A stretch of DNA of 64,000 nt from Acorus gramineus (taxonomy: Eukaryota > Streptophyta > Magnoliopsida > Acorales > Acoraceae), in the NCBI GenBank assembly GCA_030737835.1, contig CM060849.1:20444074-20508073 (forward strand), read 5' to 3'. Below are positions 2,918 to 60,215 of the stretch, in pieces. The number at the start of each line of letters is the position of its first letter. The stretch's first letter is position 1. The notes beneath the pieces were generated by a model, which was not told where the DNA came from, did no database searches, and saw only the letters and a list, made by a program, of their open reading frames with translations. A program made the position numbers and the translations under genes.

Positions 2918-5026
2918 TCAAAGAAGATCGACCTCAAACATGGCCTGCCCGAGCTGGAGCAGATTCTGCAGCTCCTCCGGGTTGTGATTGGAAGCGGCAC
3001 CGCCCGAATTGGAGGCCTCTCTCGAGGAGAAGAGACTGTGGTGGTGAAAGTACATCCCCGATGAAGGCGAAGAATGCGTGGAAGGCGAGAATTGGGTCGT
3101 TGTTGCCGAGTCTTCGGATGCCAGCATGTGCCTCTGCTGGCCTCCAAGTGACAAATATTGGGTTGCCTTGTCTTGATTATGCTCTTGATATTGTTGGCCT
3201 TCTTCGGCGGCGTTGTTATTCGAAGATTCGCTTGTTTGACCACCTCCGCCGCCACTCGATAGCATTAGTGCTGAAAATGTTGAAGAGAGGGTAGAACAAG
3301 ATCAGGGTCTTGGATAAGATAATCTTATACACTCAGTCATTCCTGCAGTCATGGCCTACTATGCGCTATCAATTAGAAAAAATGTAAAGGCATATGCGTT
3401 CGATTTAATCCCAGTATATACATATTGGGATTGCAGCATAAGTGATGGCATGAAATGATTATCCCTAACATATTCTTAGAATTATAATAAACACTTGATA
3501 GATTAGTGTTCTCTTTAGTTAAGCAAGTACTGTTGTTTGAATTATTGGATGTGGATGAGTCGGAGGTGGTCGGCTGAGACTTTCTTCTCCGTCGGTTGTG
3601 GTCCGCCAAGCGCTTTCGGCAGCTCCTCTTTGATTCGTCGAACTCAGCCAGTACATGGAACCTAAACATGAGTAAAAAAAAATGCATGATTAGGGAAACT
3701 CATTTAGAGAAAAAACTATTACATGTTGTTGTTGTTGTATTAGAAGAAGAAACCAGTACACGAAGAACATATGATCTCACACTGAGAAACAACAGTCACT
3801 TACATGTGGTTCTAAAGAGTACCACCACCACCACTACCAGTAGTCAAGTGAATTCAAGACCCCCCACATTGAGAAATTGTTGGACTGACCCCCATTGATT
3901 TTACAGATCTGGGGAAGGATTTGTTAGGTTTTGGACAGAGCACGAAAACCGATGCAGGTTCACGGAAATCAAAGGGCCTCACCCCCAACATCCCCTCTAT
4001 TTCATTTTCCAAAGCATTTGATTCAAATTAAAAATTAAATTTTTTTTTTATTCCAAGTAGGGGAATCAGAGGGAGAACATGTAAAGAAACATTGGTTTTA
4101 AGTCATGCACATATTGTTGTGGGTGTTTCCACTGCACTGAAATCCTCGTCACTCCCCCTTTGACATGACAACAAATCAAAGACTTCACAAGCAAAATAAA
4201 TCAAGTAGCTTGAGAGAATCCCATTTAAAAAAAAAAAACATACAAAATTTTATAAAAGAAGCTCCTTTTCCAAGAAATCACTTCCAAAAGATCTTAGGAT
4301 GGAATATTTTATGAACAAAGGTTGATGAAAACCCTAAGTTTGTAAGCACCCAAACCTCCATTTCCAAACATGAATCAAAACAAAACAAAAAAATCAAATC
4401 TTTCTCACAGAGAGACATGTTTGTTCTGAAACAGACCTGCTACATTGTTGGCAGAACCTCTGCTGGAGACCACCAGCAATAACAGCAGTGGCCTTTGAAT
4501 GGAACCCACAGACCTTGTGCCTTCTGTGGTAGTGCTTCGCATTCGACAAGTCCACATTGCAACCCTCGGCTTGGCAGCGCGGGACAGCTTGACCGGCGCC
4601 GTATACCCCTCTGGACCTCCTGAACAGCCTGTCTATGGCGGCGACATCGCCGGCAGAGAAGTATGTCCTCCTCCCGAGGTTCAACCCAATCGACCCACAC
4701 TGATGGTAGTGGTGGTTGTGGTCTTCTTCACTCTTTATGATGCCTAGTGGAGGCAGAGAAGAGGTGGTGGTGATTTGGTGGTAGTCAGGGAGGAGTTGGG
4801 AGGGGTAGAGAGGGAGTGGTGGTTGGGGAGAGGTTAAGAAGTCATTGGTGGTGAAGAAGTGGTGGTGGTGAGAGGAGGAGGTGGTGGTGGTGGTGGTGGT
4901 GGGTGTTTCACAGTCAAGCCAGAGAGGCTTTTGAGAGGTGGTGCTCTGTTGATGATACTCAACAAAGGGGAACACCATGGAAGAAGGGACATAGGTTTCT
5001 GAAGGAGTACTACTTGAGTTGTTCAT
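2918..5026 (-). CDS. SPL8: SBP-box transcription factor, SPL8-like
   Basis: Encodes a squamosa-promoter-binding-protein-like (SPL) factor, a plant-specific nuclear protein that binds GTAC-core DNA through a two-zinc SBP domain. My model has three exons: 5026-4437, 3661-3531 and 3270-2918, with GT-AG introns and matching phases, giving 357 residues. The SBP domain spans about residues 150-224. Zinc ligands visible are C151, C156, C173 and H176 for site 1, and C192, C195, H199 and C211 for site 2, followed by a basic [13 protein letters not shown] nuclear signal. The first intron splits the Arg of CQQCSR, the conserved position in SPL genes. The segment just before the domain, [13 protein letters not shown], closely matches SPL8 proteins, which act in anther and reproductive development. 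Low-complexity Thr/Ser/His runs lie at 42-60. The reading frame stays open upstream to 5368, but that part is low-complexity, so the Met at 5026 was chosen. The second donor is uncertain (3531, or one about 39 nt downstream in the same phase). No miR156 site was seen in the coding exons. Confidence 0.9.
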
Positions 5027-5335
5027 CTTCTTGTTCTTCTTCTTCCCATCAAAAGAAAAGACTCTCAAAAGGGGGAAGTTGGTTTTGGAAAAGCTTTGTC
5101 TATGGTTTTTGTTGTTTTTGTTGTTGTTGTGTATATATATATATATATGCACACACAACACAACACTCACTACATATACACATTGGGTTCTTCTCTTTTT
5201 CAATGGTGGGTCATCTAGAGTGATAGAAAAGGTGAAGTAAAAGATGTTTTTTTTTTTTAAGTGGGTGTGGAGAGGGTCGAATTTTACATGCAGGGACAGT
5301 GGGAGCAGTGATGTCTCCGTCGGTGACAGCAGAGA

Positions 5336-5357
5336 CAGAGAGAGAGAGAGAGAGAGA
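5336..5357. repeat. GA/CT microsatellite in SPL8-like 5' leader
   Basis: An uninterrupted (GA)n run on the plus strand, CT-rich in the sense of the SPL8-like transcript, about 310 nt upstream of its start codon. CT-rich tracts are common in plant 5' leaders. A run of 13 G follows at 5402-5414. Confidence 0.85.
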
Positions 5358-5401
5358 CCTTTGAACAAACCAAAACGTTTGAAGGATGTCTGATTGGTTG
5401 T

Positions 5402-5414
5402 GGGGGGGGGGGGG
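5402..5414. repeat. Poly-G run (13 G)
   Basis: Thirteen consecutive G on the plus strand in the upstream region of the SPL8-like gene. Its length is likely to vary or be hard to sequence. Confidence 0.9.
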
Positions 5415-7974
5415 AAGAAGTAAATGAGTGATCTGTTGAGCTGGTTTGATTGCAGCCTTTGCTTTCCATTTTTTTTCTTCCTCTGAAACTGAAAAAGAAA
5501 TTATTATAAAAGAAAAATTGTTTTCAGAGATTTCTTTTTGCCACTTTTTTTTTTTTTTTTTTTTTGGCTTCCATATGATTCTGTCAGAGGGGGTAGTGAT
5601 CTTTGTACGATGTACAGTGTTCTGTGACCCCCCCAATCACCATCTCTCCATCTGTGTCTACAATAGTTTGAATAGTTGGTTGATTAGACACTTTTTACCG
5701 TATATCAATTGAAAATACAAATGTGTAAAAAAAAAAAAAAAATGTCCTTTTTATTTTAAACCCTCCATGAACCTTGTGAGTCCCCACCCCCCTTTGTATA
5801 AAGTGACTGACTGTTCATTTCATGGGTCCAGCAGATTTAGCTTGGCTAAGTTTTGAGAAACATATCTCATGTTCCACTCATAAGTGTTTGAAAGCCTTTT
5901 TTTTTGTGACAAAACAAAAACATGTGATGGGAGGGGAGATTTATTTTTTGTAGAATCAGAGATCAAACAAGTTGATCAGAACAATATCTTTGCCCATGGA
6001 CTTTGAATATATTTGTATGCAGTGAAGAGTGGTTGGTTATCATATATGCCTACACTGACCTGATGAGAAGATTCTTAAAGAAAAATTAAAACTTATCTTT
6101 TTAAACATTTTTTTTTTGGTGTAACTTTCTAAACGTGTTTTGTTGTCTTCAAGACAGGGATCATGCCAAAAAACAATGACTTGTGCTTTAAGAAAAACAG
6201 CTTATACTACCACTACTAATAGTGTTTTTTTTTGTATGATGTTAGAATCACTGGTTTCTTTAGTAGTTAAAGTATGGTTTGTCAAGGACTGATAATGATT
6301 GCTCACAATTGTCGTTGTTTGTTGTCTTGAGTATGTCAAGTAAAGAAAGATGCACTAATCAATCTCAATCATAATAAAATTCACTTCTCAAAAAATAAAA
6401 ATCACAGTAAAATAGAACGTTCTCCAAACAAAATTTTATATTTTGAATTATGCATTTAGTATCTTCATGATCTGGGTATTCATTTAATTTAGATGATTTA
6501 CCATATTCTTTGTTATTTTAAAAGTAACGCTAATTGTTTCTATTGTCTTCACATATAAAAGCTTTACAAAATATTTTTTCGTACCAGCGATCATGATACA
6601 TCTATAAAATGGTTTAACTATCTTCATTTTTGTATTGTACTTAATTATTTTTATCATCTAAGAATGTATACCAATGCAGAAAATTTACAGCACATGAACT
6701 TTGTAATGAGTACGAGTGTACAAATAAATAAGTTGTACCCATTACACTATTCCTCCCTTTATAGTACATAACTAGATACAGTGCATGCTACATTAAGGAC
6801 TTGTTTGCCACTTATAATTCAAATGTGAACGATTATGGTATGAAAGAATGTTGTGCTGTGAATCGACACCACTTGTAATACAATTATTTCTTTTACAATT
6901 CTTCTTTTCTTTTCCAACATGAATTCTTGAACTGTTCCCACTTCTACAATAAGAACATAAGGAGCTTGAGCCATTATATTGTCAGTAGGTTTATATAATA
7001 ACTGCAAAGACTATATATATATACATATACATAACTCAGACCTGTGACAGTGATCTTAGTTGATTATTGATAGTATCTGGACCCATGAACAGAAGATTAA
7101 ATTAGTGTTCTAAAGTTTCTTGTTTGAATCCCAAGTGAAATCTGGCACCTTGAACTCAGAAAACAAAGTGTGTCCAACTTGTGATATACTGCTGAGAAAA
7201 AGAAGGACTTTGTGATGTGATCGAGCTCTCTCTTTTGAGAGTCACTTTTTGCCCGATGAGGACATACGTGTCGTCCCAGGGGAGTCGATCATGTCATGCA
7301 TTGCAAACCAGGCAATTTTTTTTTTCCTGTAATGGTGTTCATGGTGTAATTGTACAAAAAAAAGAAAAAAAAAAGAAAAAGGTCTTTTCAAATAGTGGGT
7401 TCATGTGTAAAATTAATTATTTGTCGTTAGAGACATAAATAATAGTGTTTTAGTATGAATAAAAAACAAATTATTTTTGTTTTATTATGTTTTTAATTAT
7501 TTTTTTCAAAAACATATAATAATTAAATTTTTATTATTTAGGTCATTGATAAGTTATGAATAAATAATCATAAAAAAAAAATGATAGGACATTCATAAGT
7601 GATTTGATACGTGGATTTTTTTTATATCAGTTAAATAGATTAAATGAGATTACATGATTCTAAGAGATCTGAAGAACGAATACATACCGATACCAATTTA
7701 GGATCACCTGTTTTGACATATATAGGTGTATCCCCTCATTTCTTTAGAATCTATTAGGATTGAGAATTAAATTATTCTGAGATTTATAACTATTCTAGTA
7801 TACATGAATAATAAATATTTTTTTTTGTTTAGTTGTGTTTTTAATTATTCTCGTTGAAAAACATAATAATAAAGTTTTTGTAAAAGATTTATCAAAGATG
7901 AAAAAATGATTTGACATACGGACCGCCTGATTTATAAGACATGGTGACAATTGATTTGATAGTGGGGTACACAT
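5415..7974. other. SPL8-like upstream region, AT-rich, no gene
   Basis: Should contain the promoter of the minus-strand SPL8-like gene. No coding sequence is supported. A moderately GC-rich patch at 7215-7310 contains the imperfect hairpin-like string ctctctcttttgagag, but I could not assign it. The rest consists of A/T runs and fragments of dispersed repeats. Confidence 0.4.
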
Positions 7975-8740
7975 GGCCAACCCTGATTATAGGCCCGGTA
8001 GGCGACCGCCTAGGGCCCCTTCTTCAAAGAGGGCCCCCAAATCCAAGATTTTTTTTTATATTAAACTTTTGAAATTAAACTTAATAATAATTTTACATCC
8101 AGTCTATTTTGTAGCCCTAAATTCAATTTAAAAGTGTTTTGATTTTTTTTAAAATAGTATACATCATCTAATAAGGTACATGTTTTTACAATAAGTGAAG
8201 CATATACCTCTAATAAATAGCATATATGCATTGCTAAGGTCAGTATACGCTTTGATAATTTTTCATCGACGCATATGAGACTGGAATTGAGGCTGGAATA
8301 AAAACTATGTGTAACAACACTCTAAAATTAAATTTTTTTAAAAATAACTTGAATATGTCTTCCTATTTATTTTAAATTTAAATTTATAAGTTTTATTTGA
8401 AAATGTAATCTTTGTTGGCATCATTATGAAAAGTATTTTTTTTGTGATTTTTAAAAAATTTCATCTGTATCTTTATATATTTAATATATTTTTAGTATAC
8501 TCTATTTTATAGGGATTTATTTATTTTCTATAAAAGAAATGATCTTATTTTTGTGATTTTTTTTTCTTTTTAAAGAAGAACTCTGATGAATTTTTTTGCT
8601 TAATCATGATCTTTTATTACTAACATGATTAAAACATTTACTCAAAAATTTCAATATACATATATAGGACTCCATTTTATGAGCTGACCAAGGGCCCCAC
8701 CTAGATTTTCTTATCTCAGGGCCATATTCAAATGTGTTGA
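7975..8740. mobile_element. Possible old hAT-like element with inverted GGGCCC ends
   Basis: The left edge has a GC-rich block, taggcgaccgcctagggccc, at about 7990-8020. The right edge at about 8690-8725 contains the inverted counterpart, aagggccccacctag and cagggcc. The AT-rich interior has no ORF of note and includes a family A copy at about 8120-8320. The inverted-end arrangement and GGGCC-rich termini fit a decayed non-autonomous hAT element. The alignment is imperfect and no target duplication was found. Confidence 0.35.
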
Positions 8741-31794: not shown

Positions 31795-31916
31795 GGGGAA
31801 ATTAATTAGGGGTCCCTGACCCTATATTCATAATAACAATAAGTCCCTGGACTGTTTTACAATAATGATAAGTCCCTAAACTCAAAAGCTATTATCTTTG
31901 GGTCCCTCAAACTAAC
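31795..31916 (+). repeat. Left terminal inverted repeat of the MULE
   Basis: Begins ggggaaattaattagg and continues through gtccctgaccctatattc. Positions 31795-31849 are identical to the reverse complement of 41473-41419, and 12 mismatches fall in the remaining 67 bp by my alignment. Confidence 0.95.
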
Positions 31917-32062
31917 AAAGTTACTAACTGTCATTGAAAATCCCCTTTATACCCCTCCCACTTAAAACCCTCTCCCCCCCCCTTCAAAACCTTTCATTCC
32001 CTGTGTAAACCCTCGTCTCACCACCTCCCCCCATCTCCACTATCCTCCCCTATTAAACCTGG

Positions 32063-32150
32063 TGTCCGACGGTGTTCGGGGAGGTCGAGTCGGCGGTGAA
32101 GAAACCCATTTGTCGGACGGAGTTCGGGGAGGTCGAATCGGCGGCGAAGA
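32063..32150 (+). repeat. Tandem pair of a GC-rich approximately 45-bp unit
   Basis: The segment ttcggggaggtcgagtcggc near 32074 is repeated as ttcggggaggtcgaatcggc near 32123, each followed by ggtgaagaa or ggcgaagaa. It lies in the leader or promoter side of the plus-strand MULE gene. No function is assigned. Confidence 0.7.
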
Positions 32151-32153
32151 ACA

Positions 32154-32172
32154 CCCCCCCCCCCCCCCCCCC
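32154..32172 (+). repeat. Poly-C run of 19 bases
   Basis: Nineteen consecutive C immediately after the GC-rich tandem pair, inside the left non-coding arm of the MULE. The exact length is suspect in any assembly. Confidence 0.85.
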
Positions 32173-33421
32173 GTTTTAACTTGAGCGAGGGTTTGGATCA
32201 TAGGAAGGAGAGAAGGTCAAGATTTTCTTCTTCTTCTTCGAGTGAGAGAGAGAGAGAGAGAGAGGTCGTCGTTCCCCAATGCCTTCTTCAAAAGCTCCAC
32301 TACTCTTTGAAGGTCCTCTCCCTATCTCTTTGTATATCTCTGTCTGGACTTCAGCAGTTGTTGATGAAATGTTGTTATTGTGTGTTTCAGGGAATCTTGT
32401 GTTGTTTTAATAGTTGAAATTTTTAACAAAGATTGGTTCTTGACTGGCCCTTGATTGAATTATTGGGGTTATTTTTCTCTTAAGATTAGTATCTTGTTGT
32501 GGGTTTTGGATTGCAGGGAGATCTAGATTTAGATAGGGGTAGCAATTTTTAAGGTCGAGATTGATTTCTCTTCTTTGTTTTTTAGAATTTAGGGTTTGGC
32601 ATTGGACATTGTCATCATGTGTTGGGTAAATACATCTAGTATACCAGGTAAATACATCTAGTATACCAAGGACAGTTTCAGTCACATGTTTCACTGGATC
32701 AACATATATGTAGAAGTTGTACGACCTGGAAAATTTCACTGCCTAATTTTAAGGTTTGAGAAAATGTGGCTTTTAATCTTGTCTATGAACAAGTACAATG
32801 TGGAACCCTCAATTGTTGAATAATCCTGTTCAAAATTTTTGAGTGTGCCGTCCGTTTTTGTCATGTTTTTATAGCTGAACCCAATTGTTTGAGTTGTTCT
32901 TTGGCCCTGTTTATATATTAAGTATTAGATTTAGTGTGAAGTAATGAGTAACTAATGATTATTTTTTGGAGTAGTGGGGTGTTATTTGTATTCGCTGTAA
33001 TGGGCTAGTAAATGCTACATGGCCTTGAAACTGGAGCTCTTAGGCTCCCATGAAGTGGGTAAAAATGGAGGTCTTTCCGTTATTCTCTTCCTGTACATTG
33101 TTATGCTTCTTTGATACACTGTTATCAAAAAGAAAAACAGTCAATGACTCCATGCTAATTCTTTAAACATTTTTCATCAAAGATCTCTGTTATATTTTCA
33201 AATATTTGGCTTATGTTTTGTATTTGTTTTTCAAATTTGTTATTTCCCAAATTCCTTTTTTTTGTACACTGTTATTCTCTTCCTGTACATTATTATGCTT
33301 CTTTGATACACTGTTATGCTCTATATGTATATTGATAAATCATTATTCTAATTATGTAGTATGACGGACTGTTCACCACCTTTTCCAACATTTTTTTTCC
33401 ATGTTGTTAGGTTGAAACATA
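32173..33421. other. Left non-coding arm of the MULE (promoter/leader of the Ulp1-type gene)
   Basis: Contains a GA microsatellite at about 32244-32261. Between about 33090 and 33320 there are several copies of the element-specific motif (tgtacattgttatgc, gatacactgttat, tgtacactgttattc). An intron in the 5' UTR is possible. No coding sequence was recognised before the ATG at 33422. Confidence 0.5.
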
Positions 33422-36400
33422 ATGGCTCGTCTGCAGAAAATCACACCACGACGAAGTTCTCGAAACCAAAAAGCAGTAGTCTCTAAAGAGGATGATCCTT
33501 TTACCTCCACTAGAAAGACTCGGGCATCATCATCAAGAGATCCTCAAAATCCCAAGAAGACTCGGGAAAAGTCCAAACCAAAGTCAGCCACTAATACGAA
33601 GTCCAAATCGAAGCCATCCACCATGAGGAATAAAAAGGAACAAGGCAAACTCCTAGTCTCTAAAGAGGATGATCCTTTTACGTCTACTAGAAAGACTCGG
33701 GCATCATCATCACGAGATCCTCAAAATCCCAAGAAGACTCGGGAAAAGTCCAAACCCAAGTCAGCCACTAATACGAAGTCCAAATCGAAGCCATCCACCA
33801 TGAGGAATAAAAAGGAACAAGGTAAACTCTTATTACATGCACTGCACAAGATTAAAACACATGTGTACACTGTTAAAATGATCTGTGCACACCATTGAAG
33901 TGGTTTTGTACACTCTTAACATACTTTTGTACACTATTAACTCTTTGGTACTATCTTATAATAGGGACAGTGAAACCCTTTCTACCCAAATCGATGCTGG
34001 TGCAGCATAGGTGCTTCCCAATCTATTACATAACTGCCATGGATGGGATGGAAGTCAGAGAATGCCACAGAAGATTGATGAAGAAGACACCATTCAATAT
34101 TTTGGTTAATATTCCGAGGATACAGTTCCAGTCAGAGTTACTTGATGTCATCGTTAGCAGCTACAAATCTGATGGAGATTTCTTCGAGATAGGTGGGCAG
34201 CCGATATCTTTGACTCCCGAAGATGTTGCCCTCATCATAGGGCTGCCAGCCTTTGGGGAGACCCCTAACTTGAACTCATCATCTACAAAGTCCGAATTGA
34301 AGAAGCGGTTCTTCAGTGATACTTCCATCATCACCAGGGCAGCCTTGAAGGAAAGTATGTCTCACTTGATGAACTCTGACGACCCTAAAGACATCGAAGA
34401 TTTTGTGAGACTTTGGATAGCTTTCATATTTGCGTCGTTTCTGTTTCCGATTGGACACTACAATTGCCCAATTCCTCTTTTAGGATTGTTGGATAATCTG
34501 AAATCCACATGGAAGTATGCATGGTCCGTTGCCATCCGCGATCAACTGATGGAGGGCGTACGGAAACAACGAGCCTGCATAACAATGAGGGACGAGGGCC
34601 AATATTCCAAATCATCAATGGGATACGTTTTTGGTTGCACCGCGGTTCTCTGTGTAAGTATCACATCACTTGAAAAAATGTAAATGTTTTTTTAATTATT
34701 AATTTGTCAGAAGAATTAATGAAATAATTTTTATAGGCTTGGTTCTACGAGCACACAAGAACAACTAGATGGATGCCTACAGCTCACCATGTCTCCCCAC
34801 GATTATTCAAGTGGGCGATGAAACTGAAGAGGAGAAGGGGGGAGAAAAATGCTGACCCCTTCAGGGTAACCGCGGCTGAGGTAAATAACTCATAATCACA
34901 ATTATATATATATGAACTGTTATGCATACATATGTAAACTTATTCAAATTATCTGAAATAGTACACTGTTATTTAAAATCTGTACACTATTATTTCAAAT
35001 ATGTACACTATTAAGTCATCTGTGTGCACTAGTTGAAGACATGTGTACACTAAAGATGTACATTATTATCTTCTGTGCACACTGATTGAGCACATTTGTA
35101 CATTACTAATTCAAATGTGTACACTACTATATATGACCTGATCTACTCTGTATAATATTGACATAGATTTCCTTTTGTGTTGTAGGTTATGATAGCCCTC
35201 AAGGTTGACGATGGAGAGAGATGGCTCCTCAATGGGGGTAGGATGGATAAAATTCAGGGGAGGAACACTCCCTTGAATTATTGGAAGGAGGAGGATGAAC
35301 AACAACACCAGAGCTAAAAAGATGTAGGAGATTGGCTAGTGCAGTTCCCTCTATCTCATTGAAGAGGAAATTGGGGTCACTTCGTCATTATGGAGGAAGT
35401 AGACTAAGGAAGAAACTAAAAGAGATGAAGGGAGAGATGGAGGTGCTTAAGTCAAAGGTGGAGTTGTTGACGGCTCAAAATGCCCAGCTATCTAAGGAGC
35501 TTCAGAAGAAGGGGGAGGGAGAAGAGGGGGGAGAAGAAGAACAAAACTTGAAAGAAGGGGAGGAGGCCTCTGAAAATGATGAATACTACATAATTAAGAG
35601 ATGCGAATTTGATGGTGTAGATGAGTCATGTGGGGATGATGTCATAGGTGGAGCTAGTGAAGATGGGTTTGACAAAGAACCCTATAGCATTGTGGATGTT
35701 AGCTCCCAGGAGATGGACTTATCCATTGTTCCATTCAGTCAGGATCCCGACGAAGTGTTTTCTGTCATTCCTTTCAGTCAGAATCCTGATGAAGGGATCA
35801 TTCAGGGGGTTCCAAAAAAAGCCTCCTATGTTGAGAGATTGAAGAGGAGAAACAGGATGTCCTCATATTTACTGCGGTCTCCATACTACCATGGAGCTGT
35901 GAAGAAGGAGTTGCTCAAGGCAATGGATAATGTAGTGCAAGAAACTGAGCTGTTGTTGTTGACCCCCCCATCACCAAAAGGAAAAAAAATGACTAATGTA
36001 CTATTTAAAATCCCAAAGAGAAAGGTAAGCAAAATACAATCTTTGCTTAAAAATTCAGAAATTAAGTGAAATAATATAGCCATTTTTCATGTATTATAAT
36101 TTGCAGGTCCTCACAGAGAAACGAAGAAATTATCAAGGGAAGAGGTTTTGTCCGCCGAAGATGATGAGTTGATTAATCAGTTTTTGTCATTACCAATCAC
36201 AAGGTATATATATAAAACATTTAAAAATATTTTTTAAATTTGATAAACACTGTTAACAGTTACCTATATGCATGATGTACATTATAGGGATCCATACTTG
36301 TGCATTGGGGAAAAATGTATTAACGCCTGGCAAATACGAGATGTGCTTTTCAAGTTAGAATTGGAGGATGACGTAAGTGAAAATATTTACAATATGGTAA

Positions 36401-37375
36401 TGTGTGTGTTTAATAATTTATCTAATGATTTGAACTTCTGAGTACTTGTGATAGGCTTTGGATATGTATTTTGGTATCCTTGAAGAAGAGCAATCTCCTA
36501 CAAAATGGTATTACGTGAGTTCTTGGGCTCAGGTAAATTCATAATTCATTGTCCTATTATAAGTTTTTAGACAATACATGCGTCTTACACCTTCATATTT
36601 ATTTTTTGGTCATGATGTGTAGAAGACACTTAAGGACAGTCATCCCCTTTTAGAAGACGCTGCGTCGGCAGAAGCTTACATGAATGCTTTGACTGGATTC
36701 TTCAGGGGTTGCACCACAGCAACATTGATGGACCTTGACATGGTTCTTATGCCCGTCCACTCTGATTTCAAAGGGTGCCAACATTGGCATCTATTGATGG
36801 TGGATTTGAAAGGCCATCGATTCGTAGAGTACAACTCTATGAGAAATGTTGCTGGATTTGAACAATCGACAGACAAATTGGTGAGTATTAAATTTTGTTA
36901 AAGTCCTCATGTACATTGTTAAAGTCCTCATGTACACTGTTAAAATTCCTCAAGTACACTATTATAAGTATATGTACACTGATAGTGTGAGATTACAATG
37001 TGCAGGTTCAATGGCTGAAGATGTATTTCCAACTTAATCATTTCATCTACAATGTTGAAGACTGGCCAATCATAAGGGATGATCAATGTCCACAACAATC
37101 TAATGGGTCAGTGTTATTGACATAATTTCATTATTAATTTATGCAAGAACGTGATAAGATAATATGCTTATGTTGTTTGTAGGGTTGATTGTGGCATGTT
37201 TGTGCTTAAATACGGCGAGCACCTCATAAAAGGAACAAACATGGATTTTCAACAAAATGACATTCCAAGGTTCCGAGGGGAGTACGCAGCCAAAGTCATT
37301 CGAAAAGCTAAAGAGAGTGAAAATCGGATAAAAAGAATACAAGAAGAGTGTGAAACATATAAACAGCAGATGTAA
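33422..37375 (+). CDS. MULE-borne plant-mobile-domain / Ulp1-like cysteine protease gene, frame probably broken
   Basis: Exons I can trace: 33422-33821, 33965-34653, 34737-34880, 35186 to about 35316, about 35317-36024, 36107 (or 36127)-36203, 36288-36372, 36455-36532, 36623-36880, 37006-37106, 37183-37375. The product starts with a basic, Ser/Lys-rich region. Next is a domain like the plant mobile domain found in transposon and MAIN-like proteins (PFNILVNIPRIQ..., IGGQPISLTPEDVALIIGLP), then a coiled-coil Lys/Glu segment, and finally a Ulp1/C48 peptidase. Protease motifs: HWHLLMVDL with the catalytic His (exon at 36623), PQQSNG with the oxyanion Gln, and VDCGMFVLKYGEHL with the catalytic Cys. 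The triad Asp is replaced by Asn in VEYNSM. Ulp1 enzymes cleave SUMO; the substrate here is unknown. Two frame problems exist: a TAA at 35314-35316 followed by an open frame shifted by one base, and a phase mismatch at the 36024/36107 junction unless acceptor 36126 is used. It is either a damaged gene or one with unusual splicing. Confidence 0.72.
33479..33832 (+). repeat. 177-bp (59-codon) tandem duplication inside the first exon
   Basis: Copy 1 is 33479-33655 and copy 2 is 33656-33832, in frame, with only a few substitutions. The encoded unit begins VSKEDDPFTSTRKTRASSSR and is rich in Lys, Ser and Arg. At the end of copy 1 the DNA reads gaacaaggcaaac; at the same place in copy 2 it reads gaacaaggtaaac, which serves as the splice donor. 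Confidence 0.93.
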
Positions 37376-38118
37376 TGTGTTTGTAATATAATTTGGTGGT
37401 GTTGTAATGTGGTATACTGTTTTACATCGGTGGTGGTGAAGTTTAATATGGTGCTAATGTTTTATATATGTTGAACAATGTAATGTGGATTAAATCTTAC
37501 AGGTTTTATCTGTTACTGTTATAAATGTTACAGGTCATATCTATTGCATTATGTACACTGTTATGCAGCATGTGTACACTGTTATAAATGCTACAGGTTA
37601 TGTGTCTTACATTGTGCACACTCATATGCAGCATGTGTACACTGTTATTAATCTTACATTTTTTATAAATGCTACAGGTTTTATTTGTTACTATTATAAA
37701 TCTTACAGGTTATATAGCTGTTGCATGATGTACACTATTATGCAGCATGAGTACACTGTTATAAATGCTACAGGTTCTGTTTGTTACTGTTATCAAGGTT
37801 ACAGAATGTCTGTTACACGTGTACATTGTTATGCAACATGTGTACTCTGTTATAAATGAGTCAGGTTCTGTGTTTTACAATGTGTACACTGTTATGTGGA
37901 ATATGTACATTTCTATGCGTAATATGTACACTGTTATGTGGCATATGTACACTGTTATATATGTTACATGCTCTTTAGTACGATATGTTATACAGTATGT
38001 GTAAACAGATAATGTTCTAAATGACATAAGCATAGGTATAAATTCAAACATAGATGAATATATCATTAATGTTATACATCATAAAGTTCTCCAATACTAG
38101 ATTGTGAAAGATACATCA
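37376..38118. repeat. Array of TGTACACTGTTAT motifs between the two MULE genes
   Basis: Between the convergent stop codons (37375 and 38119) the sequence from about 37540 to 38000 is built of irregular units of roughly 40-80 bp combining tgtacactgttat, gcagcatgtgtac and ttataaatgctacaggtt. The core TGTACA is palindromic. The same motif recurs in introns of the plus-strand gene (33840-33950, 34950-35135, 36240-36290, 36900-36985) and in transposase non-coding DNA (40020-40070, 40620-40665, 40795-40830). Confidence 0.85.
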
Positions 38119-40408
38119 TTATTCAACGGCCACAGGATTCCTGCATGTCTTCTTGTTGTGTCCAAATCCCTTACATCTCGAACATCGATTATGAGTTATC
38201 GCATCTGGATCTGCCTGTGACTCTATTCTCTTTTTCTTCTTCCTCCCTGGCCTGATCTTTGTAAACGGAGGTTTGATGGATATGCTTTCTTCCTCCTCTG
38301 TCGGTTTTTGAACACCCACCACAAGTAGGATTGCACCTGCATATGCTTGGCGAAAAGTATCCGATAGAAAATACGACGAACAATAATCATAGATGGAGCG
38401 GTTTATTTTCCATACTGCAGCACAAGCATGGATACAGGGTAACCCAAACACTTGCCAGCCTCTACATGTGCACGTGCGATCATTGAGGTTGACTGCTTCA
38501 CCTCGTCGCCCACAGATCTCGAAATGATTTCCATCTGAACACAACACTTGCAAACCACGACACCCTACTTGATGCTTCTCCATTTTTTCCATTATTGATG
38601 GGCATAAGTAAGTCTCCCACTCGCTAGCCTCATTACGTCTTTTGTACATCATCTCCATCATTTGAACCCTTATATGATCAATCATCTGAACTATTGGGAG
38701 ATTGCGGGCTTCAAGTATCCATGAATTGAAAGACTCAGCACAGTTAGAGTACAATTCTCCATATCTTTCCCCTGGAAATAGGGCATTTGTCCAATGGTTT
38801 GGATCAGAATCTTCAACACATTTTGTGGCTTGTTGAGAGAAACACTGCATTTCGGCTATGGCTTTTGTGTAATCTTCGATCCTCAATCCATAAGCTGCAG
38901 CATCTAGTAGTTGAAGCAATTTCCTTCTAACAGAAATATTGAATTTTCCAGTGATCGTCTCTTTAAAATTCATCTTCAAATGTCGTAAACAATGAGAATG
39001 ATATGAGTCTGGAAAGACTGAAGGGACAGCTGACATTAAACCCTTACCCCTATCAGAAATGAATGTGATTCTTCGATCTGAAGATATGATCCCTCGTAAG
39101 CATGTTAATGTCCATGCCCAATTATCTTCTGTCTCTTGATCCACAACTGAAAATGCTAATGGAAAAAAACCGTCATTCCCATTCTTAGCAATGATCGCAA
39201 GCAAAATACCTTGGTACTTAGATTTTAAAAATGTTCCATCTAAAAACAACATGGGCCTACACCCAGTCTCAAAGCCAGCAATTACAGCACCAAAACTTAC
39301 AAATACTCTTCGAAATCTATGATCTTCAGGAGTGCATTCCAACTCCACGTAGCTTCCAGGATTCGTATTCATTACCGCTGTAGCATACCATCGGAGATGA
39401 TCAAATGAAAGTGCTTCATCTCCATGCAAATCCTTACAAGCTATCTCTTTTCCATGCCATGCCTTGTGGTAAGGTAAATTGATGCCATAATCTCTAAATA
39501 CGTCCTTCACTATATCGCGAGGTCGATATAACGGAGAATCTATCAACTTCTTTCTTGTAATCTCACCCACCCATCTTCGTGATGCTCTAGGATGACCGTT
39601 TGTTGATATTCCTCCACCACATGAGTGAACGTTCAAATCATCGTCTTGATTTGAAAGTAAGGACCCAACCCCACTCTAGAGCAATGTACACGCCATCCAC
39701 ATGAAGGAATCTTACACTTAACTGTCACCCTTACTCTGTCATTCTTCACGTACTCAAAATCAAATGAATGTGCTATGGCATAATTGGTCAGCTGAATTCG
39801 AAATTCTTCGACATCTTCAAACTGTTGATTGATTGAATGAATGCAGTTATCCCAAAAACTTGTGAGCATCCCACTTGACGTACTCCCGCAAATGGCTTCC
39901 CCTTGGGTGACCATACTACAAGATGTAGGTGCAGTATTTGTCATGTTCATTTGGACTGTGTTGGACATCCTGCAATTCATTTCAATTATAGGATGCATTA
40001 GGTATAATAATATATACAAAATTTTATCACTGTCTATGTACACTATTAGTAATCTGTGTACATTAATAAAATTCTTACGAAATGACTATGAAAGAGTATA
40101 ACATATTTTTACCTTATTCCTTCATCTCCGTCACAAGTTTGTCCATCATTGAGGGTAACATAGATTTCGACTACCATAGCCCCACACATCTTATGGATGT
40201 CGTACATCTTCTCTACGGCCTTATCGTTCCCAATAGTGGGTTTAATCATTGTTTTCCCTGGAATTTCATACTTCATAATAACTTTGGCCGCATCGAACCC
40301 CCATCTTTCCACTAATTCATTGACAATGTAAGCATACGTTGTTGTTCTACATATACTAACTACCTCGGCATCTCCCATATACGTACAAGCAGCCATGATT
40401 GGTTCCAT
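38119..40408 (-). CDS. MuDR-family (MULE) transposase, apparent frameshift
   Basis: Exon 1, 40408-40113, starts at MEPIMAACTYMGDAE and ends on a GT donor in phase with exon 2 from 39969. Exon 2 encodes the N-terminal DNA-binding region of Mutator transposases (about 39860-39650: FEDVEEFRIQLTNYAIAH ... CGWRVHCSRVG). The frame then stops at about 39633, and the rest (39636-38119, 505 residues) continues one frame over, so a small indel is likely near 39633-39650. The second part has the MULE catalytic domain with DGTFLKSKYQG and ISDRGKGLMSAVP (DDE-type Asp residues), a later ESFNSWILEARN region, a SWIM zinc finger CTCRGWQVFGLPCIHACAA, and a C-terminal CCHC knuckle CSRCKGFGHNKKTC. The enzyme would cut and join the element ends. 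The order and spacing are typical. Exon 1 resembles the variable N-terminal region of this family. Confidence 0.9.
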
Positions 40409-41351
40409 TCTTCAAAAATGATAAATTAATCTGCAAATTAAAAGGCAATTAACATGAATTTCATGTTAGTAACTTATTATAACATGCAATTACATTCAAC
40501 CATTTTTCACACATAAACTGACAATAATCTCTTGTTATAAAGAACATATTTTTTTGTTTTCATCATATTGTAACATGCATACACATTGCCTAATAAACAT
40601 AGAAAACACACAATGTAGTCAATGTACATTGTTAGGTTCACTGTGCACACTATTAATATTCACACTTTGAGAATCTCTTAGTTCAAAAATATATACAATT
40701 ATATAAAGAGTGAAACTTTAAAAATTTCATAATTTCAGAACATGCATGACTACATAAAACTGAAAATCATCGCACACTATGTCATGTACTGTATTTGTAC
40801 ACTGATAAGCGAACTGTGTACACCCTTACACTTTCATATTTCTAAAAACTCTTCAGTACATTTATACAAACATCTAAGATGCATAATCCAACACCCACTT
40901 CCAAAAAAAAAAAACAAAATCAAAATTCAACACAAAAAACAGATCTCACATCCACAAAAATAAACCTTATAAAAATAAACATCCACAAAAATATTGTCCG
41001 TGAGCAGGGGAGGCGGCAACCCTTACCGCAGAGGAGAAGGTGCGCCGCCTGGGAGGGACTAGTAGCGGCCTTCACCGTGAGCAGGGGAGAAGCAATCGAG
41101 GAGGAGAAGCGATCGACGAGGAGAAGTGGCAGAGAAGTGATTGACGAGGAGAAGCGGTCAAGGAGGAGTAGCAGCGTCAATGGAGAAGCGGTCGAGGAGG
41201 AGAAGCGGCAGTCGACAAGGAGGAGAAGCGACGGTCCACGAGGAGGAGTGGCTAAGGTTTTTTTGGGGGAGAGAAGGGAAGAGACGAGGGTCTCTGGGTC
41301 GACTTAATTGGGAGGGTAGAATAGGTACTGTTAACGGACGTTTGAGAAGGT
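40409..41351. other. Right non-coding arm of the MULE (transposase leader and promoter)
   Basis: Holds a few TGTACA-type motifs (40620-40830). At about 41010-41250 there is a GC-rich degenerate repeat of gaggaggagaagcgatcgac type, which is CTCCTC-rich in the sense of the transposase transcript. The Arg/Glu-rich open frame on the plus strand is a by-product of that repeat. Confidence 0.6.
41010..41250. repeat. Degenerate GAGGAGAAGCG repeat
   Basis: Imperfect units such as gaggaggagaagcggtcga recur about ten times with spacing of 20-40 bp. Because it lies upstream of the transposase it is probably transcribed as part of its leader. Confidence 0.75.
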
Positions 41352-41473
41352 GTTAGTCAGAGGGACCTAAAGATAATAGGTTTTGGGATTGGGGACTTAT
41401 GATTAAGGTAAAACATTGCAGGGACTTATTGTTATTATGAATATAGGGTCAGGGACCCCTAATTAATTTCCCC
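41352..41473 (-). repeat. Right terminal inverted repeat of the MULE
   Basis: The plus strand ends agggacccctaattaatttcccc at 41473. The reverse complement of the 122 bp aligns with 31795-31916 without gaps, with 12 mismatches, all in the inner half. Confidence 0.95.
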
Positions 41474-58796: not shown

Positions 58797-60215
58797 CTGC
58801 GTTCCGACGGGTGTAGTGAAACAACTAGATGTGATCCGCCGGAGGTTTTTTTGGCAGGGCGGTGTGACGACACCGCGAAAACCACACCTAGTGGATTGGG
58901 ACTCCGTTTGTCGGAGCAAAAGAGAGGGGGGCCTCGGAGTACTTGATCTCCGGGATATGAACACGGCCCTCCTCGCCCGCTAGCTATGGCGTTGGTTGGT
59001 GGACAGAAAACCGTGGGTTCAACTGTTCCAAGAGCGATATGGAGGTGGTGGACTGGGGGTTGGCCTAGGCTCACTGCGCGCTCGTCCTCTCTCTGTAAAG
59101 GAATATTTGGACGCCGCGTGGAGTTCTCCTCGGCCCTGAGATGGTCAATTGGAAAGGGTGATGAAGTACACTTTTGGCATGATCAATGGTGCGGTCCACT
59201 ATCGCTACGTGCGGAGGCGCCCGACATTTACAATCTAACCAGGCAAGTGGATGGTAATGTTTTCTCCTTTTGGTCTGGGGTGGGAAGCATCCAGGGCTGG
59301 GAAGTGACACTACGCAGGTCTCGTTTGAATGCGATGGAATCAACACAACTAGGTGTGTTGTCCGACCGATTGGCGGCGTGGAGCGGCAGCCTAAATGATG
59401 CGCAAGATTGCCCATGCTGGACTCCGAATCAGTCGAAGGACTACTCTATCCAATCAAGGTACCAGTGGTGGCGCAGGATGCTTGTAGCAACCTTGCAGGG
59501 CTGTGATCGATTCGTGTGTCTTTGGATGACCAAGACACCTTTGAAGGTTAAAGTTTTCCTATGGTTACTAGTCAGGAAGAGGCTACTCACAACAGCTTAC
59601 AGAGCCAGATGGTGCCCCACGGAGTCGGTTTCTTGTGTTTTCTGTGGTGAAGAACTCGAGACGGTGGTGCATCTATTTTGTCTTTGCAGGGTCTCAAAAG
59701 AATTCTGGAAGATGGTGAATGAAACAACCGACGCTACGCGCTAACACGCGATCGATCGAGGAGCTTTGGGAGGCTGGTAGGTTATTGAAATGCACGGGTT
59801 CCTCCAAGGTCGAGAGACAGGTCCTCCGTCGGTGGTGGTTGCGGGAGCATGGTCGATCTGGCGCGCCCGGAAAGACGCGGTTTTAACGCGTCTCGAGTTT
59901 ATGTGGAAAACATTTGGGAGACGACGGTGGTTTTCATTGTACAATGGGGCCGGGGTATCGCGGGGGCCCGGAGTGTGGTCTTCCACAGGGGAAGAATTAT
60001 TGTTGTCACGTAGTTTCGGGGATTTTCATCGGTGGAGATGGCGGTCCGGTAGACACCCCGTTTACTTGGGATCATATTCACTAAAATTTTATTTTGCATT
60101 GGCTTTATGTTGGTTTTCATGTCTTTCTTTACCCTCTCACCTCCAATTCAGAGTTGTAACCATTCTTCTAGCAATACAAGTTTGGTAGCAATATCTACCT
60201 TATTTTTTAAAAAAA
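58797..60215 (+). mobile_element. 5'-truncated L1-like LINE, copy 2, reverse-transcriptase C-terminal and zf-RVT region
   Basis: About 1.42 kb encoding the end of a plant L1-type ORF2. The early part, in frame from 58830, reads RRRFFWQGG...DWDSVCRSKREGGLGVLDLRDMN, the usual block before the RT zinc-binding region, and stops at a TAG at 58981. Another frame (to 59744) has GKGDEVHFWHDQWCG and then the zinc-binding domain: LWMTKTPLKVKVFLWLL, CVFCGEELETVVHLFCLC. A W-SIWRARKDAV segment follows at about 59850. The 3' end has ggtagcaatatctacc and an A-rich tail at 60208-60216. A 15-bp target-site duplication (58782-58796 versus 60216-60230, 14 of 15 identical) brackets it. Stop codons and frame changes make it dead on arrival or old. 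Confidence 0.92.

Follow-up and report, generated by a model that had tools for sequence, protein, structure and literature searches.

A Mutator-like element with long terminal inverted repeats that probably carries a VANC-type anti-silencing system

Introduction

VANC proteins of Arabidopsis VANDAL elements remove DNA methylation (PMC5735166). VANC21 binds the motif YAGTATTAY in non-coding VANDAL21 DNA, where motif density matters and the motifs are dense, in one orientation and accompanied by tandem repeats; VANC6 has another motif (PMC5735166). DUF1985 is named for these Arabidopsis proteins, which are drawn with two domains, DUF1985 and DUF287. The same source does not state that both are required, and describes tandem peptide repeats as frequent in variable VANC regions (PMC5735166). 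Here, a 64,000-nucleotide stretch of Acorus gramineus contig CM060849.1 (the window) is analyzed, in which positions 31795-41473 are a Mutator-like element (MULE) with terminal inverted repeats (TIRs) and a transposase gene convergent to a Ulp1-domain gene. Judged from its sequence, this element probably has its own VANC-type, sequence-specific anti-silencing system, because it combines a DUF1985-type domain with a helically spaced, subfamily-specific array of a short word in non-coding DNA.

Several described systems share parts of this organization. VANDAL21 (Hiun) with VANC21 and VANDAL6 with VANC6 are MULEs that, as here, have a second gene with DUF1985, a non-coding word array, and words that differ between families, and the tandem peptide repeats of variable VANC regions resemble a 59-amino-acid N-terminal tandem unit of the Ulp1-domain protein (PMC5735166). 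However, the Arabidopsis VANC proteins have DUF287, with no Ulp1 domain mentioned in PMC5735166, whereas here Ulp1 is present and DUF287 was not found. Kaonashi elements (KI and KIU) share the reversed orientation of the Ulp1 gene relative to the transposase (PMC13317346; PMC2528002), and a 2026 review describes KIU as Ulp1-carrying VANC genes that likewise recognize non-coding motifs (PMC13317346). Arabidopsis KI-MULEs are non-TIR elements, whereas the TIRs here exceed 120 bp. Ulp1-carrying TIR-MULEs of melon and grapevine have, as here, a ULP sequence downstream of the transposase and 9-bp duplications, but the passages of PMC2528002 that treat them describe no word array. In maize, the Spm protein TnpA is, like the protein proposed here, element-encoded and linked to demethylation of its own element (PMC10398659).

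ULP genes in TIR-MULEs (melon, grapevine) and VANC-type systems in eudicots are already in print. The points that belong to the present family are the length of its TIRs, the sharing of one pitch by two natural words, and an Asn-containing catalytic triad. Literature searches, which could not use the name of the host, did not recover this family. A 2022 EMBO J abstract by Sasaki reportedly addresses helical periodicity and the gain and loss of DUF1985, DUF287, and Ulp1.

A One-Orientation Word Array in Non-Coding DNA

The 12-bp word TGTACACTGTTA, at up to two mismatches, has 33 sites on the plus strand of the window element and a single minus-strand one. Exons, which are 52% of the element's length, contain none of the 33 plus-strand sites, and shuffled sequence holds a mean of 0.7 sites and at most 3 (30 shuffles). 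The remaining 54 kb of the window have six plus-strand and two minus-strand sites. Both ends of the element are free of the word, with 1297 bp between the left end and the first site and 645 bp between the last site and the right end. Ten long copies of the element carry 33-59 plus-strand and 1-3 minus-strand sites, with 0-2 in their flanks, and the exact word occurs 1637 times genome-wide compared with 125 times for the word read backwards. The array is thus family-specific, non-coding, and in one orientation, except that a distant subfamily (C, below) uses both strands.

Two resemblances of the word may be due to chance. The variant ACACTCTTA (e.g., at window position 33907) resembles what we take to be the 12-bp site of maize Spm TnpA. 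By eye, the word core CACTRTTAY / CACTATTAT is one base off the YAGTATTAY of VANC21.

A Pitch of 21 bp

The spacing of sites in the window element is mostly 21 or 42 bp. Among pairs 10-70 bp apart, 22 of 30 lie at 20-22 or 41-43 bp, compared with a mean of 2.4 and a maximum of 10 in 500 jitters, a null that ignores tandem duplication, which the comparison of subfamilies and the diversity of spacers address only indirectly. The nine bases that separate the words are variable. Genome-wide, exact words form 465 pairs at 21 bp and none at 16 bp. The vector strength is 0.85 at a period of 10.5 bp (100 pairs at up to 110 bp, from four copies of three lineages). High scores are also reached at 10.25 (0.82), 7 (0.79), and 21 bp (0.72), which follows from the 21-bp pitch itself, and the link to the DNA helix is therefore an interpretation: 21 bp being two turns of B-DNA, neighboring sites would lie on one face of the DNA.

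The Array in Other Subfamilies and in Shortened Copies

Subfamily B is 76% identical to the window element in the transposase and 58-60% in the DUF region. Exons make up 84-100% of each of its eight blastn matches to the window element, and its other non-coding DNA no longer aligns. Despite this divergence, the word is kept on the same strand as in the window element (21:0 and 9:0), and 10 of 11 and 6 of 8 close pairs are in phase (null means of 1.0 and 0.6).

Subfamily C is 42-50% identical to the window element in the transposase and 31-33% in the DUF region. The word of the window element (the A word) is practically absent from it, with 0-2 matches per strand at two mismatches. Subfamily C has a word of its own, TTTCTGTAAC (TTCTGTAAY), at the same 21-bp pitch. 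This word was derived from 12-mer counts and then tested for phase, which gave 17 of 31, 13 of 21, 13 of 18, and 21 of 37 pairs in phase in four copies (null means of 1.4-3.1, maxima of 6-10), whereas none of the four has an in-phase pair of the reversed word. The sequences fC2 and C_C2b align at ~87-93% and are therefore not independent. Genome-wide, the exact C word forms 128 pairs at 21 bp and two at 16 bp. No phased C site falls in coding matches, where 3-5 unphased ones occur per copy. By eye, the A and C words have the core CTGTnA in common. Strand-bias counts were rejected as a means of finding the C word because T-rich introns and repeats rich in GAGGA distorted them.

The array also persists in copies that have lost genes. 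In three copies of 3.4-4.4 kb, chosen for end matches without a DUF match, the Ulp1 gene is mostly gone and the transposase wholly or largely so, but 25-28 plus-strand sites remain, a density of 5.96-8.34 words per kb compared with 3.41-4.80 in the ten long copies. All three further word clusters examined, picked among the first hundred places listed, sit between relatives of the element's ends; they hold 10, 11, and 18 sites, all internal and all on one strand. One of these copies, of 915 bp, has little beyond ends and words, with CAATATTTT on either flank. An earlier note on this DNA, made from the window alone, had regarded copies with the same ends but no protease gene as an argument against a functional unit. 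The three shortened copies, which lack most of the gene, answer to this description; with their arrays kept, however, they look like derivatives mobilized in trans and not like the outcome of chance pairing.

Place and Conservation of the Ulp1 Gene

The sample of long copies comprises 12 members, including the window copy, and was picked for gene matches. All 12 have the C48 (Ulp1) exons and the DUF exon, the latter at least in part, in the same order and orientation. Some exons are missing: six Ulp1 pieces from C62, the first piece and a portion of the second from C2b, and, from C43, the upstream transposase exon as well as one Ulp1 piece. Four long copies match only 57% of the tandem-repeat exon, as though holding one unit. 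Starting from the transposase, a DUF match lies within 20 kb of 18 of 31 loci (at ≥83% identity) and of 10 of the 12 full-length ones; the full-length loci C8 and C2:11.84 Mb have no DUF match within 20 kb.

The ratio of nonsynonymous to synonymous substitution rates (dN/dS) was obtained per exon relative to copy C32. From copy fC7, it is 0.17 in the DUF exon (215 codons), 0.26 in the next exon (48 codons), and 0.36 in the first C48 exon (76 codons). From copy L045, it is 0.25 (26 codons) and 0.49 (59 codons) in the later C48 exons. Both fC7 and L045 are damaged, and part of the measured change is therefore neutral. The transposase value is 0.18 (632 codons, fC7 against C32). In subfamily B and most of C, dN/dS is saturated. 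Close-copy values for the C48 region were dropped in favor of the per-exon values, since the codons counted exceeded the domain and the matches ran into introns. The suggestion that the Ulp1 gene is part of the element is supported by its constant place in the long copies, its DUF exon near most full-length transposases, and dN/dS of 0.17-0.49.

Domains and Active Site of the Ulp1-Gene Product

The Peptidase_C48 model matches one window exon at E 9e-7 and the spliced 963-amino-acid product of C32 at E 8e-23. By profile, the domain has the Ulp1/SENP fold, and its closest solved chains are SENP1 and SENP2 (SENP1 E 1e-12). The His-Asp-Cys triad is altered: in 12 of 12 long copies, an Asn aligns to the Asp of SENP1, with His and Cys kept. 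His, Asn, Gln, and Cys are identical in all 12 and also in B_C7, fC2, and C_C5; four other rows of the alignment lack some of the positions. C_C10 and C_C2b likewise show His and Asn, the C copies have Ala after Cys, and D_C10 has Thr at the Asp position. His, Asp, and Cys form the catalytic triad of SENP1. Papain uses an Asn.

The earlier note had proposed an architecture of mobile domain, coiled coil, and Ulp1. The Ulp1 domain stands, whereas matches to a coiled coil in the window protein are weak (e.g., bZIP E 0.02). The mobile-domain match is weak in the window. DUF1985 is found at E≤0.1 in six of six DUF exons of the family, and two C members exceed the curated cut-off (36.7 and 44.1 bits; cut-off 35.1). 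The related plant mobile domain-like (PMD) model matches five of the six and reaches its cut-off in none. Sequence comparison through relatives confirms the predicted domain as DUF1985-type. A single-sequence AlphaFold2 model of this exon has a mean pLDDT of 39.9, and no conclusion was drawn from it.

A more distant locus, L044 (family D, C10:46256-54255), has a DUF region 27% identical to that of the window and a Ulp1 gene with Thr at the Asp position. It carries repeats of its own, among them a tandem of 266 bp (6970-7975). Many near-identical DUF matches lie elsewhere in the genome. No transposase match was found in the 8 kb examined.

A Predicted Anti-Silencing Mechanism and Its Alternatives

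In a VANC-type system, the Ulp1-gene product would bind the word, with several molecules lined up along one DNA face. Binding would lead to loss of DNA methylation and to de-repression of every array-bearing copy, including the short gene-less derivatives, and the transposase would then act on the TIRs of the de-repressed copies. The least certain step is that of the Ulp1 part, which may act on chromatin proteins at the bound copy by removing SUMO or a similar modifier, or may serve as a binding platform. In the best-supported reading of the sequences, the protease part would be an accessory to DNA-binding anti-silencing. The proposal that the protease helps the element against silencing is thus supported as to an anti-silencing role, the gene being conserved with the element, but a SUMO-protease route is less well supported, given the DUF1985-type domain, the arrays, and the Asn in place of Asp. 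A more specific version is tentative: a DUF1985-Ulp1 protein on one DNA face might read the fixed 21-bp pitch while the word is free to change, its His-Asn-Cys Ulp1 enzyme might free silencing factors of SUMO or a similar modifier at the marked element alone, and the gene-less derivatives might amount to TIRs plus a phased array.

Several observations weigh against a VANC-type system. The DUF1985 match of the window itself is 16.5 bits, below the curated cut-off, and the PMD match is slightly better at 19 bits, also below. A scan of the whole 963-amino-acid C32 protein lists C48 alone at E≤1, leaving DUF1985 and PMD unlisted, and DUF287, the other VANC domain, was not found in that scan. Unlike in A and B, the C word sites are on both strands. 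Coding matches, whose bounds are loose, contain a few unphased sites (2 of 42 in C32, 1 of 21 in B_C7, and 1 of 29 in fC7, besides those of the C copies). Between A and C, the word changes together with both proteins, transposase (47-49%) and DUF (~32%), and this covariation therefore cannot tell which of them reads the word. In addition, VANDALs typically lack TIRs or have degenerate ones, whereas the element here has long ones; in one survey, a VANDAL clade has some TIR-bearing members (PMC6446971).

The covariation leaves room for the main rival, which assigns the word to the transposase as its binding site, comparable to subterminal repeats in other plant transposons, and treats the Ulp1 gene as a passenger. 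Many plant transposases bind repeated short motifs, and the word does shift as the transposase diverges between A and C. This explanation is weakened because no words lie in or near the TIRs, given the word-free margins at both ends; the sites instead occupy introns and the intergenic region between the genes, and the Ulp1 gene is conserved along with the element. It is considered unlikely. Spm, which belongs to the CACTA superfamily and has subterminal sites, differs from the element in this respect.

It is very unlikely that the Ulp1 enzyme weakens silencing generally, through the host SUMO pathway and without sequence targeting. The strong C48 match, the proximity to SENP1 and SENP2, and the retention of His, Gln, and Cys in every long copy agree with such an enzyme, but the phased arrays would be left unexplained, and the Asp of SENP1 is replaced by Asn in A, B, and C and by Thr in D. 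The least probable explanation is that the words are remnants of a functionless 21-bp minisatellite that expanded by slippage. The array is partly tandem, the number of sites varies among copies, and the long copies are all close relatives, as slippage would allow. However, word and pitch stay constant while the 9-base spacers differ, the array is kept in subfamily B although the other non-coding DNA cannot be aligned, a second word occurs at the identical pitch in subfamily C, and the three shortened copies are denser in words than the ten long ones.

A VANC-type reading would place a system known by experiment from Arabidopsis VANDALs in TIR-bearing MULEs of another plant genome. Two words at one helical pitch in one host separate what is apparently fixed (the pitch and the non-coding place) from what is possibly changeable (the word), and such natural pairs of protein and target are material on how these proteins choose sites. 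The Ulp1 domain with its Asn triad offers a way into what Ulp1 adds to anti-silencing.

Ends, Target-Site Duplications, and Condition of the Window Copy

The coordinates of the element's features are collected in Table 1. The inverted-repeat ends expected from the earlier note are present, with 123 bp at 90% identity and no difference in the outermost 55 bp. The expected MuDR-type transposase and convergent Ulp1 gene are likewise borne out by domain matches on opposite strands (for the window transposase, MULE E 9e-20, SWIM E 6e-9, DBD_Tnp_Mut E 5e-17). Long TIRs and a MURA-type transposase with MULE, SWIM, and DBD domains mark the element as a MULE. VANDALs proper have absent or degenerate TIRs; the outer 55 bp here are identical, and the element is therefore not classed as a VANDAL. 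It shares with Kaonashi MULEs the reversed Ulp1 gene but not the non-TIR ends.

Table 1. Features of the Mutator-like element, in window coordinates
Feature	Position	Strand	Remarks
Left terminal inverted repeat	31795..31917	+	123 bp at 90% identity to right end; no difference in outer 55 bp
Word array 1	33092..33939	+	8 of 33 sites; upstream of Ulp1 gene and in its first intron
DUF1985-type/Ulp1 gene, 10 exons	33422..37375	+	Predicted by homology to open C32 copy; frame broken in window copy
Basic tandem repeat, 59 amino acids	33477..33830	+	Two 177-nt units at 97%; near N-terminus
Exon with DUF1985/PMD-like domain	33965..34653	+	Domain matches; dN/dS 0.17 over 215 codons
Word array 2	34960..36984	+	10 sites; Ulp1-gene introns
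Ulp1 (C48) exon with catalytic His, Asn replacing Asp	36623..36880	+	Profile and alignment
Final two exons of Ulp1 domain with catalytic Gln, Cys	37006..37375	+	Alignment
Word array 3	37552..37957	+	10 sites; between both convergent genes
MuDR-type transposase: DBD, MULE, SWIM, C-terminal zinc-knuckle-like stretch	38119..40411	-	Upstream exon 40109-40411; frame broken near 39636-39675
Word array 4	40037..40828	+	5 sites; transposase intron and 5' region; orientation unchanged though gene runs opposite
Right terminal inverted repeat	41351..41473	-	Pairs with left end; most other long copies match over ~61-65 bp only

The left end is matched by at least 40 places in the 398.6-Mb host genome, since all 40 scored among 256 candidates matched; this is a lower bound, and both ends of the window copy are counted in it. 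Right ends are of two types: the window copy, C32, and C6 share ~160 bp, whereas six copies match the outer 65 bp and one matches 61 bp. The inner terminal sequence was therefore exchanged. For C43 and C7b, no right end was found within the stretch examined.

The 9-bp target duplication typical of MULEs is found in the family, with agreement at 9 of 9 positions in 5 of the 10 long copies in which both ends were found. It is imperfect in C10 (8 of 9), C2b (6 of 9), C2a (5 of 9), and C6 (4 of 9), and three short copies show 9 of 9 (two copies) or 8 of 9 (one copy). The window copy agrees at only five of nine positions and has no clean duplication, so that the expectation of 9-bp duplications holds for the family rather than for this copy.

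The genes of the window copy are also damaged. The main transposase frame is open, without a stop, over 653-663 amino acids in six other copies (98% identity in five, 96% in one), but in the window it is interrupted near 39636-39675, and the description of the transposase as almost intact was too generous. Two pieces of Ulp1 exon, one around 35299-35316 and one at 36108-36206, have lengths unlike those in all 10 other long copies that possess them. In copy C32, the spliced Ulp1-gene product of 963 amino acids has a single stop, at its end. Both window genes are frameshifted, while relatives have open genes and perfect duplications; the window copy is therefore a damaged member of a recently mobile family.

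Neighboring Sequences in the Window

On the minus strand at ~24.8-31.0 kb, a gene for a P-type ATPase was recognized by eye from its exons (e.g., DKTGTLTLN); the enzyme is probably a proton pump of the plasma membrane. The MULE lies <1 kb upstream of the likely start of this gene near 30.9 kb and is thus a gene-near insertion. Also by eye, an open reading frame at 4394-5500 on the minus strand resembles an SBP-box transcription factor, and one at 58947-59744 on the plus strand resembles the zinc-binding end of a LINE-type reverse transcriptase.

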